Below are positions 51,239 through 54,804 of a DNA stretch of 55,309 bases, in pieces. The notes under the pieces were generated by a model. The model was given only the letters and a program-made list of their open reading frames with translations, was not told the origin of the DNA and ran no database searches. Every line of letters begins with the position of its first letter. Position 1 is the stretch's first letter. This stretch comes from Candidatus Rokuibacteriota bacterium. Its GTDB lineage: Bacteria; Methylomirabilota; Methylomirabilia; Rokubacteriales; CSP1-6. The stretch lies in NCBI GenBank assembly GCA_016188005.1, contig JACPIQ010000081.1:1-55309 (forward strand), written 5' to 3'. The position numbers and the translations under genes are program-made.

Positions 51239-51676
51239 GTGGGCGTGCCCCTCGCGCTCTCCGTCGTCCTGCTCGCCACGACGGGCGAGCTGGCCTTCGT
51301 CATCTTCCCGCTGCCGTTCCTGGGACTCGTCTGGGCCCTCCAGGGGCTCGCCCCCTCGGGGTTCACGCTGGAGGAGCGGGGGGTGCGGATCGAGCGGCGC
51401 TGGCTCCCCCGGCGCCTCCCGTACTCGGCCATCCACGCCGTGGACCGGCGCCCGCGGCCCATCGGGGGACTGCTGGCGCTCGGGCTCAACGGGCTCTTCG
51501 GCTCCTATGGCCTCCGCTGGAACCCGCGCACGGGTCTGCACTACCTCGCCATCACCAACACCCGCGATCTCGTCTATCTTCACACCAGCCGCGGACTCGT
51601 CGTGATCTCGCCCAGCCGGCCCGACGAGTTCGTGGCCGAGCTGTCGGCGCGGCTGGCCCCGGCGCGGGAGGCGTGA
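51239..51676 (+). CDS. PH-like membrane protein of unknown function
   Basis: This protein of 145 residues, if started at GTG 51239, has two hydrophobic segments. A soluble bPH-like beta domain follows (FTLEERGVRIERRWLPRRLPYSAI, in parts, near residue 41). The frame is open to CTG 51158, which overlaps the ndk stop; using it adds 27 residues and completes the first helix (RIIAGTIGLGLGVGVPLALS). The upstream start is thus attractive but non-standard. I do not recognise a specific function. Confidence 0.6.
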   Translation: MGVPLALSVVLLATTGELAFVIFPLPFLGLVWALQGLAPSGFTLEERGVRIERRWLPRRLPYSAIHAVDRRPRPIGGLLALGLNGLFGSYGLRWNPRTGLHYLAITNTRDLVYLHTSRGLVVISPSRPDEFVAELSARLAPAREA

Positions 51677-51753
51677 CGGGGCATGGGCCACGGAGATCAG
51701 CCCCGGGCGCTCGTGCGCCCCAGATGACGTCCGCCCACATCGGAGGAGATGCG

Positions 51754-53406
51754 ATGGCTGCCCCCGGCAACGTCAACCCGTACGAGCTCGACCTGGACAA
51801 GAATCCGGCCAACCACGCGCCGCTGACGCCGCTGTCGTTCATCGAGCGCACCGCGCACGTCTACCCCGGGACGCTGGCGGTGGTGCATGGCGCGCGGCGC
51901 TTCACCTGGGCCGAGACCTACGCGCGGAGCCGCCGGCTCGCCTCGGCGCTGGCGCGGCGCGGGATCGGCGCGGGTGACACCGTGGCCACCATGCTCGCCA
52001 ACACCCCGGAGATGTACGAGTGCCACTTCGGCGTCCCCATGACGGGCGGGGTGCTGAACACGCTCAACACGCGCCTCGACGCCGACGCCATCGCCTTCAT
52101 GCTGGGGCACGGCGGGGCGAAGGTGCTCATCACCGACCGCGAGTTCTCCGACACGGTCGCGCGGGCGCTGGAGAAGCTGACGATGAAGCCGGTGGTCGTG
52201 GACGTGGACGACCCGGAGCACGCGGGATCCGGCGCCCGGCTCGGCCAGACGGACTACGAGGCCTTCCTCGCCGGCGGCGACGCCGAGTTCCCGTGGCAGC
52301 CGCCCGCCGACGAGTGGAACGCGATCTCGCTCAACTACACCTCGGGGACCACGGGCAACCCCAAGGGCGTGGTTTACCACCACCGCGGCGCCTACCTCAA
52401 CGCCATCGGCAACATCCTCACCTGGGGCATGCCGCAGCAGTCCGTGTACCTCTGGACCCTGCCCATGTTCCACTGCAACGGCTGGTGCTTCCCGTGGACG
52501 ATGGCCGCCAATGCCGGCACCAACGTCTGCCTCAGGAAGATCGACGCCGCGCTGATCTTCCGCTTGATCCGGGAGCATCGGGTCACGCACTACTGCGGCG
52601 CGCCCATCGTGCACAGCACGCTGATCACCGCCGAGCCCGCCCTGCGCGAGGGCCTCACCCACAAGGTGTCGGCCATGGTCGCGGCCGCGGCCCCGCCGGC
52701 GGCGATGATCGAGGGCATGGACAGGATCGGCTTCGATCTGACCCACGTCTACGGGCTCACCGAGACCTACGGTCCGGCGGCGGTGTGCGCGAAGCACGAC
52801 GAGTGGAAGGGCCTCGACGTCGGCCGGCGGGCCGAGCGCAACGGCCGGCAGGGCGTGCGCTACCTGGTGGAGGAGGGGCTCACGGTGATGGACCCGGAGA
52901 GCATGACCCCGACGCCCAGGGACGGCGAGACCATGGGGGAGATCATGTTCCGCGGCAACATCACCATGAAGGGCTACCTCAAGAACCCGACGGCCACGCG
53001 GGAGGCCTTTGCCGGCGGCTGGTTCCACTCGGGCGATCTCGCGGTGATGCAGCCCGACGGCTACGTGAAGATCAGGGACCGGGCCAAGGACATCATCATC
53101 TCGGGCGGCGAGAACATCTCCTCCCTCGAGGTCGAGGACGTGCTGTACCGCCACCCCGCCGTGCTGGCGGCGGCGGTGGTCGCCCGCCCCGATCCCAAGT
53201 GGGGCGAGATCCCCTGCGCCTTCGTCGAGCTCAAGCCAGGCGCCCAGGCGACCGAGGCCGAGCTCATCGCGCATTGCCGCGCCCACCTCGCCCACTTCAA
53301 GGCGCCCCGGGCCGTGATGTTCGGCGTGGTCCCGAAGACCTCCACGGGCAAGCTCCAGAAGTTCATCCTGCGCGAGCAGGTGAAGTCGACAGCGGCCATC
53401 GAGTAG
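51754..53406 (+). CDS. Acyl-CoA synthetase, AMP-forming (medium-chain/DmdB-like)
   Basis: This 550-residue ANL-family ligase activates a carboxylic acid with ATP and CoA. Motifs: LNYTSGTTGNPKGVVYHHRG near residue 192 (P-loop), VYGLTETYGP near 332, GWFHSGDLAVMQPDGY near 425, then KIRDRAKDIIISGGENIS near 442 and the catalytic lysine in PKTSTGKLQKF near 530. Close relatives include 3-methylmercaptopropionyl-CoA ligase DmdB and generic medium-chain ligases; sequence alone does not fix the substrate. The ATG at 51754 has GGAGGAG upstream. It is not obviously linked to the TCA genes before it. Confidence 0.88.
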   Translation: MAAPGNVNPYELDLDKNPANHAPLTPLSFIERTAHVYPGTLAVVHGARRFTWAETYARSRRLASALARRGIGAGDTVATMLANTPEMYECHFGVPMTGGVLNTLNTRLDADAIAFMLGHGGAKVLITDREFSDTVARALEKLTMKPVVVDVDDPEHAGSGARLGQTDYEAFLAGGDAEFPWQPPADEWNAISLNYTSGTTGNPKGVVYHHRGAYLNAIGNILTWGMPQQSVYLWTLPMFHCNGWCFPWTMAANAGTNVCLRKIDAALIFRLIREHRVTHYCGAPIVHSTLITAEPALREGLTHKVSAMVAAAAPPAAMIEGMDRIGFDLTHVYGLTETYGPAAVCAKHDEWKGLDVGRRAERNGRQGVRYLVEEGLTVMDPESMTPTPRDGETMGEIMFRGNITMKGYLKNPTATREAFAGGWFHSGDLAVMQPDGYVKIRDRAKDIIISGGENISSLEVEDVLYRHPAVLAAAVVARPDPKWGEIPCAFVELKPGAQATEAELIAHCRAHLAHFKAPRAVMFGVVPKTSTGKLQKFILREQVKSTAAIE

Positions 53407-53472: not shown

Positions 53473-53495
53473 GATTGTCGACGGCACGCGCAATC
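53473..53495 (+). promoter_or_regulatory. Possible enhancer-binding site upstream of the sigma-54 promoter
   Basis: GATTG (53473-53477) and CAATC (53491-53495) form an inverted repeat around a GC core, about 70-90 bases upstream of the -24 element. This is the distance range where activators of sigma-54 bind. It is only five bases per arm, so it is weak evidence. Confidence 0.3.
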
Positions 53496-53563
53496 GTCGC
53501 CGCGCAAGGGCTTCGCAGCCGCCAGGTGCCCGCCGGAACAGGGTCTTCGCCGCGATCGCGGGC

Positions 53564-53579
53564 TGGCATGCCCCGTGCA
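53564..53579 (+). promoter_or_regulatory. Sigma-54 (RpoN) promoter
   Basis: TGGCATG-CCCC-GTGCA keeps the invariant GG and GC ten bases apart and matches TGGCACG-N4-TTGCA at all but two positions. Initiation would fall near 53590, about 38 bases before the ATG of the PEP-CTERM-like gene. Sigma-54 control of PEP-CTERM proteins through PrsK/PrsR is known in other bacteria. The remainder of the gap from 53407 shows nothing further. Confidence 0.65.
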
Positions 53580-53627
53580 CGTTCCTCTCCGCGGAAGGCA
53601 CGGCCACTTCAGGAGGGAGCGGATACC

Positions 53628-54284
53628 ATGCAGACCCTGCTCGGACATGCACTGATTGCACTTGCAGCGCTGACGACGATCCTGCCTGGGCGAGCGGAGG
53701 CCGTCCCCCTCACACACACGCCCCTGGACGCGCTGTGCCTCAGCGCCGAGGCTCCCGCAGCCTGCCACCGCAGCAGCGGGGCGTCGCGACCGGGCCACTC
53801 CTTCGACTACGATCTCTCGAGCGTGCTGGGCGGTGGCGACACGATCACCGGCGCCCAACTCCTGCTGGACCTCTGGGACGACAAGGGCAGGAGCGACGGG
53901 AGCGAGAAGATCAACATCGCGCTGGACGGAGTGCTCCTCTTCCACAACGCCGACGTCCAGCACGATGTGCGGATCGAGCTGTCCGATCTGTCCGACCTGT
54001 CACTGCTGGATGATGGCCGCCTCGGCGTCACGCTGACCGCCCGGAGAGGCGATTTCTTCTTCGGGGGCTCGACGCTCACGCTGTCTGTCGAGTCGGGCGG
54101 TCCGCTCGCAAGCTCCGTCGGCGCCCTCGCGAACGGCGCGACGGCGCCTGCCCCGGCTCCGGCCCCGCTCGTTCTCCTGGGCCTCGGCCTCACCGTTCTC
54201 GCGTGGCGGAGGCGCGCGGGCCATCGCCCCCGTTGCACGCTCGCCCGAAGGCTCGCCGGGCTCGAGGGTGCCGCGAAACGGTAA
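53628..54284 (+). CDS. Secreted protein with PEP-CTERM-like C-terminal anchor
   Basis: This 218-residue protein has a signal peptide to about residue 24 (GRAEA-VP) and a beta-rich middle (GGGDTITGAQLLLDLWDDKG near residue 66, LGVTLTARRGDFFFGGSTLT near 138). Near the C terminus APAPLVLLGLGLTVLAWRRR (about 180-199) resembles a PEP-CTERM exosortase signal, with APAP in place of PEP. About 19 residues follow, more than usual. AGGAGGG precedes the ATG, and a sigma-54 promoter lies upstream. Function is unknown; a surface or matrix role is possible. Confidence 0.6.
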   Translation: MQTLLGHALIALAALTTILPGRAEAVPLTHTPLDALCLSAEAPAACHRSSGASRPGHSFDYDLSSVLGGGDTITGAQLLLDLWDDKGRSDGSEKINIALDGVLLFHNADVQHDVRIELSDLSDLSLLDDGRLGVTLTARRGDFFFGGSTLTLSVESGGPLASSVGALANGATAPAPAPAPLVLLGLGLTVLAWRRRAGHRPRCTLARRLAGLEGAAKR

Positions 54285-54615: not shown

Positions 54616-54804
54616 ATGCCGCTTCAGCGCTCGCGCAAGTACCGGATGATCGCCGGAGTCTGCGGCGGGATCGCCGAGTGGCTGGGGTGGGATCCCACCG
54701 TCGTCCGCATCCTCTACATCGTCGTCTCCCTCGTGTCCGTGGCCTTCCCGGGCATCCTCGCCTACCTGGTGCTTTGGATCGTGATGCCGCGCGCCCGCGA
54801 GTAG
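54616..54804 (+). CDS. PspC domain protein
   Basis: This 62-residue single-domain PspC protein has MPLQRSRKYRMIAGVCGGIA, then EWLGWDPTVVRILYIVVSL and AYLVLWIVMPRA. It has one re-entrant or two short membrane segments. The PspC family is linked to envelope-stress sensing, though stand-alone copies have mostly unknown roles. GGGAGGAGGGG lies upstream of the ATG. Confidence 0.9.
   Translation: MPLQRSRKYRMIAGVCGGIAEWLGWDPTVVRILYIVVSLVSVAFPGILAYLVLWIVMPRARE

Follow-up and report, generated by a model that had tools for sequence, protein, structure and literature searches.

A predicted sigma-54-dependent gene for a PEP-CTERM-like protein, and its promoter-defined relatives, in a Rokuibacteriota genome

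The window, i.e., the whole stretch of 55,309 nucleotides that was analysed, carries a gene for a secreted protein with a PEP-CTERM-like tail (53628-54284), which is probably sigma-54-dependent and encodes an exosortase substrate. A regulon of the same design, a sigma-54 promoter followed by a secreted protein with a P-x-P tail, is seen in the genome beyond this gene. RNA polymerase containing sigma-54 would sit at 53564-53579 until an enhancer-binding activator opens the promoter. The signal peptide would then export the product and the C-terminal helix would hold it in the inner membrane; an exosortase would recognise the P-x-P segment and cut off the tail, and the processed protein would be handed on towards the outer surface or the exopolysaccharide layer. 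Transcription, cleavage, surface location and the acting exosortase are all deduced from sequence. Several findings speak against this explanation: the tail scores below both curated cut-offs and is followed by 22 trailing residues, the promoter has no significant upstream motif, and a confident orthologue is found in the same-genus genome G002 alone; moreover, PrsK was not detected among the G002 candidates scored, prsR of this assembly contains a duplication, and most exact sigma-54 sites (16 of 26 here, 11 of 12 in G002) are not followed by a tail protein. The exosortase system and the promoter design are already known, and the window protein is an unremarkable member whose sorting tag is slightly altered. 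The novelty is modest: used as a handle, the promoter finds tails in which the glutamate of PEP is in the minority (4 of 14).

The window gene and its promoter

The window is contig C81 of an assembly (G000) of 5.37 Mb in 140 contigs, which is 98% complete and 4.7% contaminated. The following features are referred to below.

51673..53406, forward strand: upstream gene, an open frame and syntenic landmark outside the system, which also precedes the orthologue (L057)
53476..53492, forward strand: TGTCGACGGCACGCGCA, the closest fit to the consensus of the 17-nt upstream motif, with a spacer of 71 nt to the sigma-54 site; not significant (agrees at 7 consensus positions, a number that two other places also reach)
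53564..53579, forward strand: predicted sigma-54 (-24/-12) promoter TGGCATGCCCCGTGCA, from sequence match, genome count and conservation in G002
53611..53616, forward strand: AGGAGG, probable ribosome-binding site 11 nt 5' of the ATG, read directly from the sequence
53628..54284, forward strand: secreted protein of 218 aa that has a PEP-CTERM-like tail, encoded from an ATG to a TAA stop, from the open frame and the G002 orthologue
53628..53702, forward strand: hydrophobic segment at the N-terminus (residues 1-25, MQTLLGHALIALAALTTILPGRAEA), a probable signal peptide with the cleavage site judged by eye
54147..54215, forward strand: PEP-CTERM-like tail, residues 174-196, with PAP repeat, hydrophobic helix and WRRR; below the PF07589 cut-off
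54216..54281, forward strand: C-terminal extension beyond WRRR, 22 residues (9 in the orthologue)

A sequence-only reading of this DNA had placed a sigma-54 site about 49 bases before the ATG, and this was borne out: TGGCATGCCCCGTGCA occupies 53564-53579, and 48 nt separate its end from the ATG at 53628. The interval proposed for the gene at that time nearly coincides with the longest open frame, whose first codon is TTG at 53475; the likeliest start, however, is the ATG at 53628. The site differs from the consensus TGGCAYGNNNNTTGCW at one position and is the only site in the window with a single mismatch; seven others have two. Within the window, sites that deviate at no more than two positions are about as frequent as chance predicts (8 seen vs 9.4 expected), and therefore the sigma-54 motif is no proof by itself. 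In G000 as a whole, 26 exact TGGCAYGNNNNNTGCW sites were counted, the window site being one of them, vs 16 for the backwards control, and the chance of an exact site within 150 nt upstream of any given gene is about 4e-4. The GG-N10-GC core is present at the window site, and rpoN is found in the same genome. Between the stop codon of the preceding gene, presumably an acyl-CoA synthetase gene, and the site lie 157 nt. Just downstream (54616-54804), a small PspC-domain protein is encoded (PF04024, 83.2 bits), which is apparently unrelated.

Conservation in a second genome of the genus

A search of 98 other genomes revealed one clear orthologue, which is encoded in G002 and is 64% identical to the window protein over the alignment and 67% identical over residues 1-208. 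No match was found in G001, so that one of the two same-genus genomes has the orthologue, and no confident orthologue was found in the others of the 98. The search of genome contigs for loci related to the window protein found none, and a search with the neighbouring gene gave loci of which the best 80 listed are mostly proteobacterial. The gene order is conserved, i.e., the orthologue lies behind the same gene. Its sigma-54 site is TGGCACGCCTCGTGCA, and the site starts 64 nt before the ATG in both genomes. When the two intergenic regions are aligned locally as DNA, the best alignment begins 4 nt before the site and reaches near the ATG; in G002, only 21 nt separate the preceding stop codon from the site. 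The dN/dS of the gene pair is 0.49, which is consistent with mild purifying selection.

Sigma-54 sites in front of tail proteins

The regions downstream of the 26 exact G000 sites were searched with a rule that requires an N-terminal hydrophobic segment, P-x-P, a helix and a basic tail. Ten of the 26 sites, the window site included, precede a protein with a P-x-P tail, compared with 10 of 4000 positions drawn at random from other stretches of G000 (p = 3e-18); with the window site left out, the count is 9 of 25 (p = 2e-16). In further controls, the rule was satisfied at 7 of 3000 positions in mostly unrelated loci and at 116 of 3000 positions picked at random in the same loci, where those genes themselves lie. 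Behind the remaining 16 exact sites no tail protein was seen; many of these sites are chance matches or serve other genes. Approached from the protein side, the tail profile TIGR02595 has 12 matches in G000, five of which have an upstream site with at least 14 of the 16 consensus positions. The earlier proposal of a sigma-54 promoter on a PEP-CTERM-type gene is thus well supported by the presence of rpoN, by the conserved site and by the concentration of sites before tail genes.

In G002, one of 12 exact sites has a tail protein, namely the orthologue; two of the 12 loci are shortened by contig ends. In Zoogloea sp. LCSB751, two of 36 exact sites are followed by a tail protein, both with E between the prolines, which is too few to tell whether the loss of E is special to the G000 lineage. 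By site counts alone, exact sites and controls elsewhere amounted to 15 vs 18 (G020), 21 vs 26 (G056) and 28 vs 18 (G103).

Other exact sites lie outside this design. Two similar small secreted-looking proteins (L040 and L043; C56:1608 and C73:26560) are encoded behind the identical exact site TGGCATGCGCAATGCT; they have neither a membrane tail nor the upstream motif described below and are possibly another sigma-54 group. An exact site also starts 28 nt before the ATG of prsT (L269:869-4111, C119). This is too close for the usual leader, and the site was therefore not counted as a promoter.

Exosortase and Prs genes in the genome

The machinery search suggested by the sequence-only reading detected rpoN (431.9 bits, cut-off 277.35), exosortases, PrsK and PrsR above their cut-offs, and PrsT as well; an exosortase and rpoN, on which the proposal hinged, are both present. 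Three stretches score above the cut-off of the exosortase model TIGR02602, two of them fragments at contig ends, and a fourth scores below it. On contig C68, PrsK (421.5 bits, cut-off 300), an exosortase (159.8 bits, cut-off 105.55), a PEP-CTERM/XrtA-type glycosyltransferase (below cut-off) and PrsR (644 bits, cut-off 502.6) are encoded within 9 kb, and this cluster is preceded by two XrtA-type amidotransferases (below cut-off). PrsT is encoded on C119 (518 bits, cut-off 312.2). The cut-off of the XrtA subtype was not reached (161.7 of 208 bits), nor was that of XrtD, the VPLPA-specific exosortase model (146.5 of 400 bits, and 129.7 and 116.1 bits for two gene fragments). The tetranucleotide usage of the C68 stretch and of the window correlates at 0.95, and contamination is therefore unlikely as its source.

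The other exosortase sequence comes from a gene that spans the ends of contigs C8 and C63, which overlap inside it (L027:1-470, start of C63; L028:1-575, start of C8), and from a further match at C8:12443. Tails near these exosortases are mostly VPEPTT or ...TTLLLWGT, which suggests that the C8/C63 gene encodes a second exosortase with its own substrate set. In G002 (87% complete), PrsK was not found among the candidates scored (51 of 66, then 10 of 65).

The prsR gene on C68 contains an exact in-frame tandem duplication of 87 nt in the AAA+ region (L026:14368-14541), which is absent from the Zoogloea and Desertibaculum homologues. The duplicated stretch includes GSFTG, which we take to be the sigma-54-contacting loop. 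It is uncertain whether the duplication is real or an assembly artefact, and hence whether PrsR is intact.

An upstream motif and the activator of the window gene

Gibbs sampling on eight promoters (five of G000 and three of G002, the window promoter excluded) returned a 17-nt motif of the form TGTCG-N7-TTACA with a TTTACA-like 3' end. Twelve of 14 sigma-54/tail promoters of G000 carry it upstream of the site (p < 0.01); this count is partly circular, as the motif was learnt on some of the 14 promoters and two genes (C92 and C100) came from a pattern search of which it is a part, and leave-one-out scoring lessens the circularity but does not abolish it. The spacers measure 52 to 106 nt, most commonly 62 nt (six promoters). 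No significant copy is present at the window gene (p = 0.53) or at C63:4423. In a search reaching 400 nt to both sides, the top score is 4.8 for the window gene and 3.5 for the orthologue, vs 11.4 to 21.3 for the 12 promoters with the motif.

The bipartite pattern of upstream motif and sigma-54 core occurs at seven places in G000, with no control match, and 24 times vs 7 controls over 99 genomes, G000 included. As judged by eye, each of the seven G000 places is followed by a gene for a secreted protein with a tail of this kind, with two deviations: C100 has VAGPPA in place of P-x-P, and C92 has a weak basic end with one R after the helix. Outside G000, six of 17 pattern matches precede a tail protein (VPEP three times, TPEP, VPNP and VPAP). 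No tail protein was seen at L168, L169, L172, L174, L175, L181, L182 and L183, and at L173, L176 and L179 the products are secreted or membrane proteins in which no tail is visible, L173 and L179 being cut by the locus end. At L172 and L175 (G030 and G055), the pattern precedes a short protein starting MALDPVCMMEITPDSAEAQLVYEGET, which is not a tail protein. Pattern and PrsK each occur in 13 of the 99 genomes and together in seven (p = 1.4e-4); in the six other pattern-positive genomes PrsK was undetected among at most 10 candidates scored per genome. With the same matrix, one of the two Zoogloea tail promoters shows TGTCGGATTTTTTTACA 74 nt upstream of the site and the other shows no copy; the PrsR proteins of G000 and Zoogloea are 45% identical. 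From its length, 3' end, spacing and the match in Zoogloea, we infer that the G000 motif corresponds to motif 1 of Haft et al., and PrsR probably serves the regulon.

Control of the window gene itself by PrsR is not supported, because the upstream motif of 12 of the 14 promoters is missing there; the orthologue has no good copy either. It is quite possible that sigma-54 control is real but that the activator is another enhancer-binding protein, which responds to a signal different from that of the PrsR genes. The window promoter lacks what 12 of the 14 sigma-54/tail promoters have, the low scores at both orthologous genes agree with this, and the genome offers 74 matches to the PrsR profile, of which many span nearly its full length. 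However, the window gene shares its tail class and promoter core with the PrsR-type genes, a PrsR site may exist in degenerate form or further away, and no alternative binding site was identified. The competing, tentative option is that PrsR acts on the window gene via a degenerate or single half-site. TGTCG at 53476 stands at the usual distance (spacer 71) and matches the conserved 5' half of the motif; still, no 17-mer in the usual interval beats chance, and a good copy at the G002 orthologue is missing. These two readings are mutual alternatives, and both are compatible with the window gene being sigma-54-dependent and encoding an exosortase substrate.

An unusually short product was also seen behind an upstream-motif/sigma-54 promoter: the 59-residue protein of L039:2242-2418 consists almost only of a signal peptide and a VPFPG tail.

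The window protein and its tail

The sequence-only reading had described a secreted protein with an APAP-type C-terminal tail resembling PEP-CTERM, a description that is confirmed by the N-terminal hydrophobic segment and by the tail APAPAPAPLVLLGLGLTVLAWRRR, which is followed by 22 more residues. The hydrophobic helix and the basic cluster near the C-terminus were found with a hydropathy rule, and the probable signal peptide by eye. In place of the Pro-Glu-Pro triad, the window protein has PAPAPAP and the orthologue VPAPAP. The Pfam PEP-CTERM model PF07589 matches residues 174-196 below its cut-off (16.5 bits vs 20.7), as does TIGR02595 (12.9 bits vs 16), and TIGR03370 (VPLPA-CTERM) has no match in the protein. 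No family in Pfam or NCBIfam matched above cut-off; the weak matches concern the tail region or PEP-CTERM families, e.g., NF038129 (13.9 of 65 bits). No match in the PDB was obtained up to E = 1, and AlphaFold2 with a two-sequence alignment of window protein and orthologue gave a mean pLDDT of 36.

The missed cut-offs and the 22 extra residues past WRRR would fit a plain C-terminal membrane anchor with no exosortase signal. This is unlikely, however: the orthologue, whose tail is VPAPAPLVLLGLGLAVLAWRRR (VPAPAPLVLLGLG...RRR) and whose end comes nine residues after the basic cluster, passes the Pfam cut-off (22.0 bits vs 20.7), and Pro-Ala-Pro tails are also found elsewhere behind promoters of this type.

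The residue between the prolines

The 14 G000 genes differ in the residue between the two prolines: E was found in four, A in three (with the window gene), G in two, F in two, S and Q in one each, and C100 has no P-x-P. Where a tail has several P-x-P, the most C-terminal one was counted, save for the PAPAP repeat of the window protein, in which all read A. Among the ten tail genes behind exact sites, E occurs in three, A and F in two each, and G, S and Q in one each. The 12 TIGR02595 matches have E in 11 cases and A in one, as expected because a profile built on PEP would select for E; indeed, of ten non-E regulon proteins scanned, window protein included, only that of C105 passes this profile. 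The promoter-selected set is free of the profile bias, yet the tail rule itself demands P-x-P. In other genomes, the bipartite pattern precedes six tail proteins, four of which have E; both Zoogloea tails have E as well, and the low share of E may therefore be peculiar to G000.

The tail of the window protein is not isolated, since VPAPA recurs at C105 and C45:11438 and VPGPA, VPSPA and VPFPS are found as well. The idea that the variant motif marks a distinct exosortase subtype did not hold, given that E, A, G, F, S and Q occur under one promoter type. APAP is better viewed as one form within a single system, given that tails with and without E have promoter type and genome in common. That a separate, dedicated exosortase recognises the non-E tails is accordingly improbable: the genome has more than one exosortase (C68, the C8/C63 gene and C8:12443), so that a division of labour is conceivable, but in addition to the shared promoter type, most tails near the other exosortases are VPEPTT or ...TTLLLWGT and so have E wherever the residue is printed, and at C63:4423, some 4 kb from one of these exosortases, a VPEPTS protein has a sigma-54 site that lacks the upstream motif. 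Finally, it is very improbable that the -24/-12 match of the window gene is fortuitous and an ordinary promoter is used; sites with up to two mismatches are at chance frequency in the window and 16 of the 26 exact sites lack a tail protein, but the window site is one of 26 exact sites in 5.37 Mb, keeps its distance to the ATG in the orthologue and belongs to a class concentrated before genes with this tail.

It may be proposed, with reserve, that in this lineage the exosortase signal is really P-x-P and glutamate dispensable, so that the profiles miss much of the substrate set, and that the window gene and C63:4423 form a subclass of sigma-54 genes without the PrsR motif and under another activator. 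If glutamate is dispensable, the rule for exosortase substrates needs rewriting. The relaxed P-x-P set defined via promoters is the part most worth following, and in practical terms promoter sites offer a handle on candidate exosortase substrates that are missed by tail profiles.

Comparison with described systems and placement of the organism

The PEP-CTERM/EpsH (exosortase) system and its regulation by PrsK, PrsR and PrsT were described by Haft et al. in 2006 (PMC1569441). They report a 17-nt motif 1 with TTTACA at the 3' end, with which a motif 2 is paired, average distances of 71 nt (23 to 221) from the sigma-54 site to the start and of 62.8 nt (32 to 92) from motif 1 to the sigma-54 site, a near-invariant PEP, and a restriction of the motifs to Proteobacteria among the genomes they examined (PMC1569441). 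The window gene resembles this system in its signal peptide, its tail of P-x-P, helix and basic residues and its site 48 nt before the start, and its genome has exosortase, PrsK, PrsR and PrsT; elsewhere in G000, a 17-nt motif with a TTTACA-like 3' end stands 52-106 nt before the sigma-54 site. It differs in that E is found in only 4 of 14 members of the G000 regulon and that the window promoter is without the upstream motif. For the pepA gene of Aquincola tertiaricarbonis RN12, RpoN1 dependence was measured; its -24/-12 promoter is TGGCAC / CTGCTT, and an enhancer sequence is predicted upstream (PMC9850573). The window gene is likewise of PEP-CTERM type with a -24/-12 promoter, but unlike at pepA, no upstream enhancer was found. 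In Desulfovibrio, DAP-chip experiments showed enrichment of DVUA0057, a regulator of PrsR type, at the five PEP-CTERM genes predicted as its targets (PMC3333781).

In the open-licence literature, no paper joining PEP-CTERM with Rokubacteria was found, and among the matches listed none joins PEP-CTERM or exosortase with Methylomirabilota, or PEP-CTERM with NC10 or Methylomirabilis. A paper on methanotrophic archaea mentions exosortase alongside NC10 and Methylomirabilis (PMC5244752). RpoB of G000, whose rpoB is split into two frames, is 52-56% identical to all sequences compared. In an unrooted tree with an acidobacterial sequence, G000, G066 and the acidobacterium stand apart from the alpha- and from the beta- plus gammaproteobacteria; without the acidobacterium, the G000-G066 pair branches beside the alphaproteobacteria, and the separation from the sampled alpha-, beta- and gammaproteobacteria is thus indicative only. 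In this respect too G000 differs from the genomes of Haft et al., and a PEP-CTERM sigma-54 regulon would be placed in a lineage seemingly separate from these sampled classes.

The VPLPA-CTERM group (TIGR03370) is another non-PEP variant of the tail type. It differs from the case described here in that TIGR03370 has no match in the window protein and the XrtD model is not reached in G000; the VPAPAS protein of C105, however, passes TIGR03370 with 29.3 of 25.35 bits.
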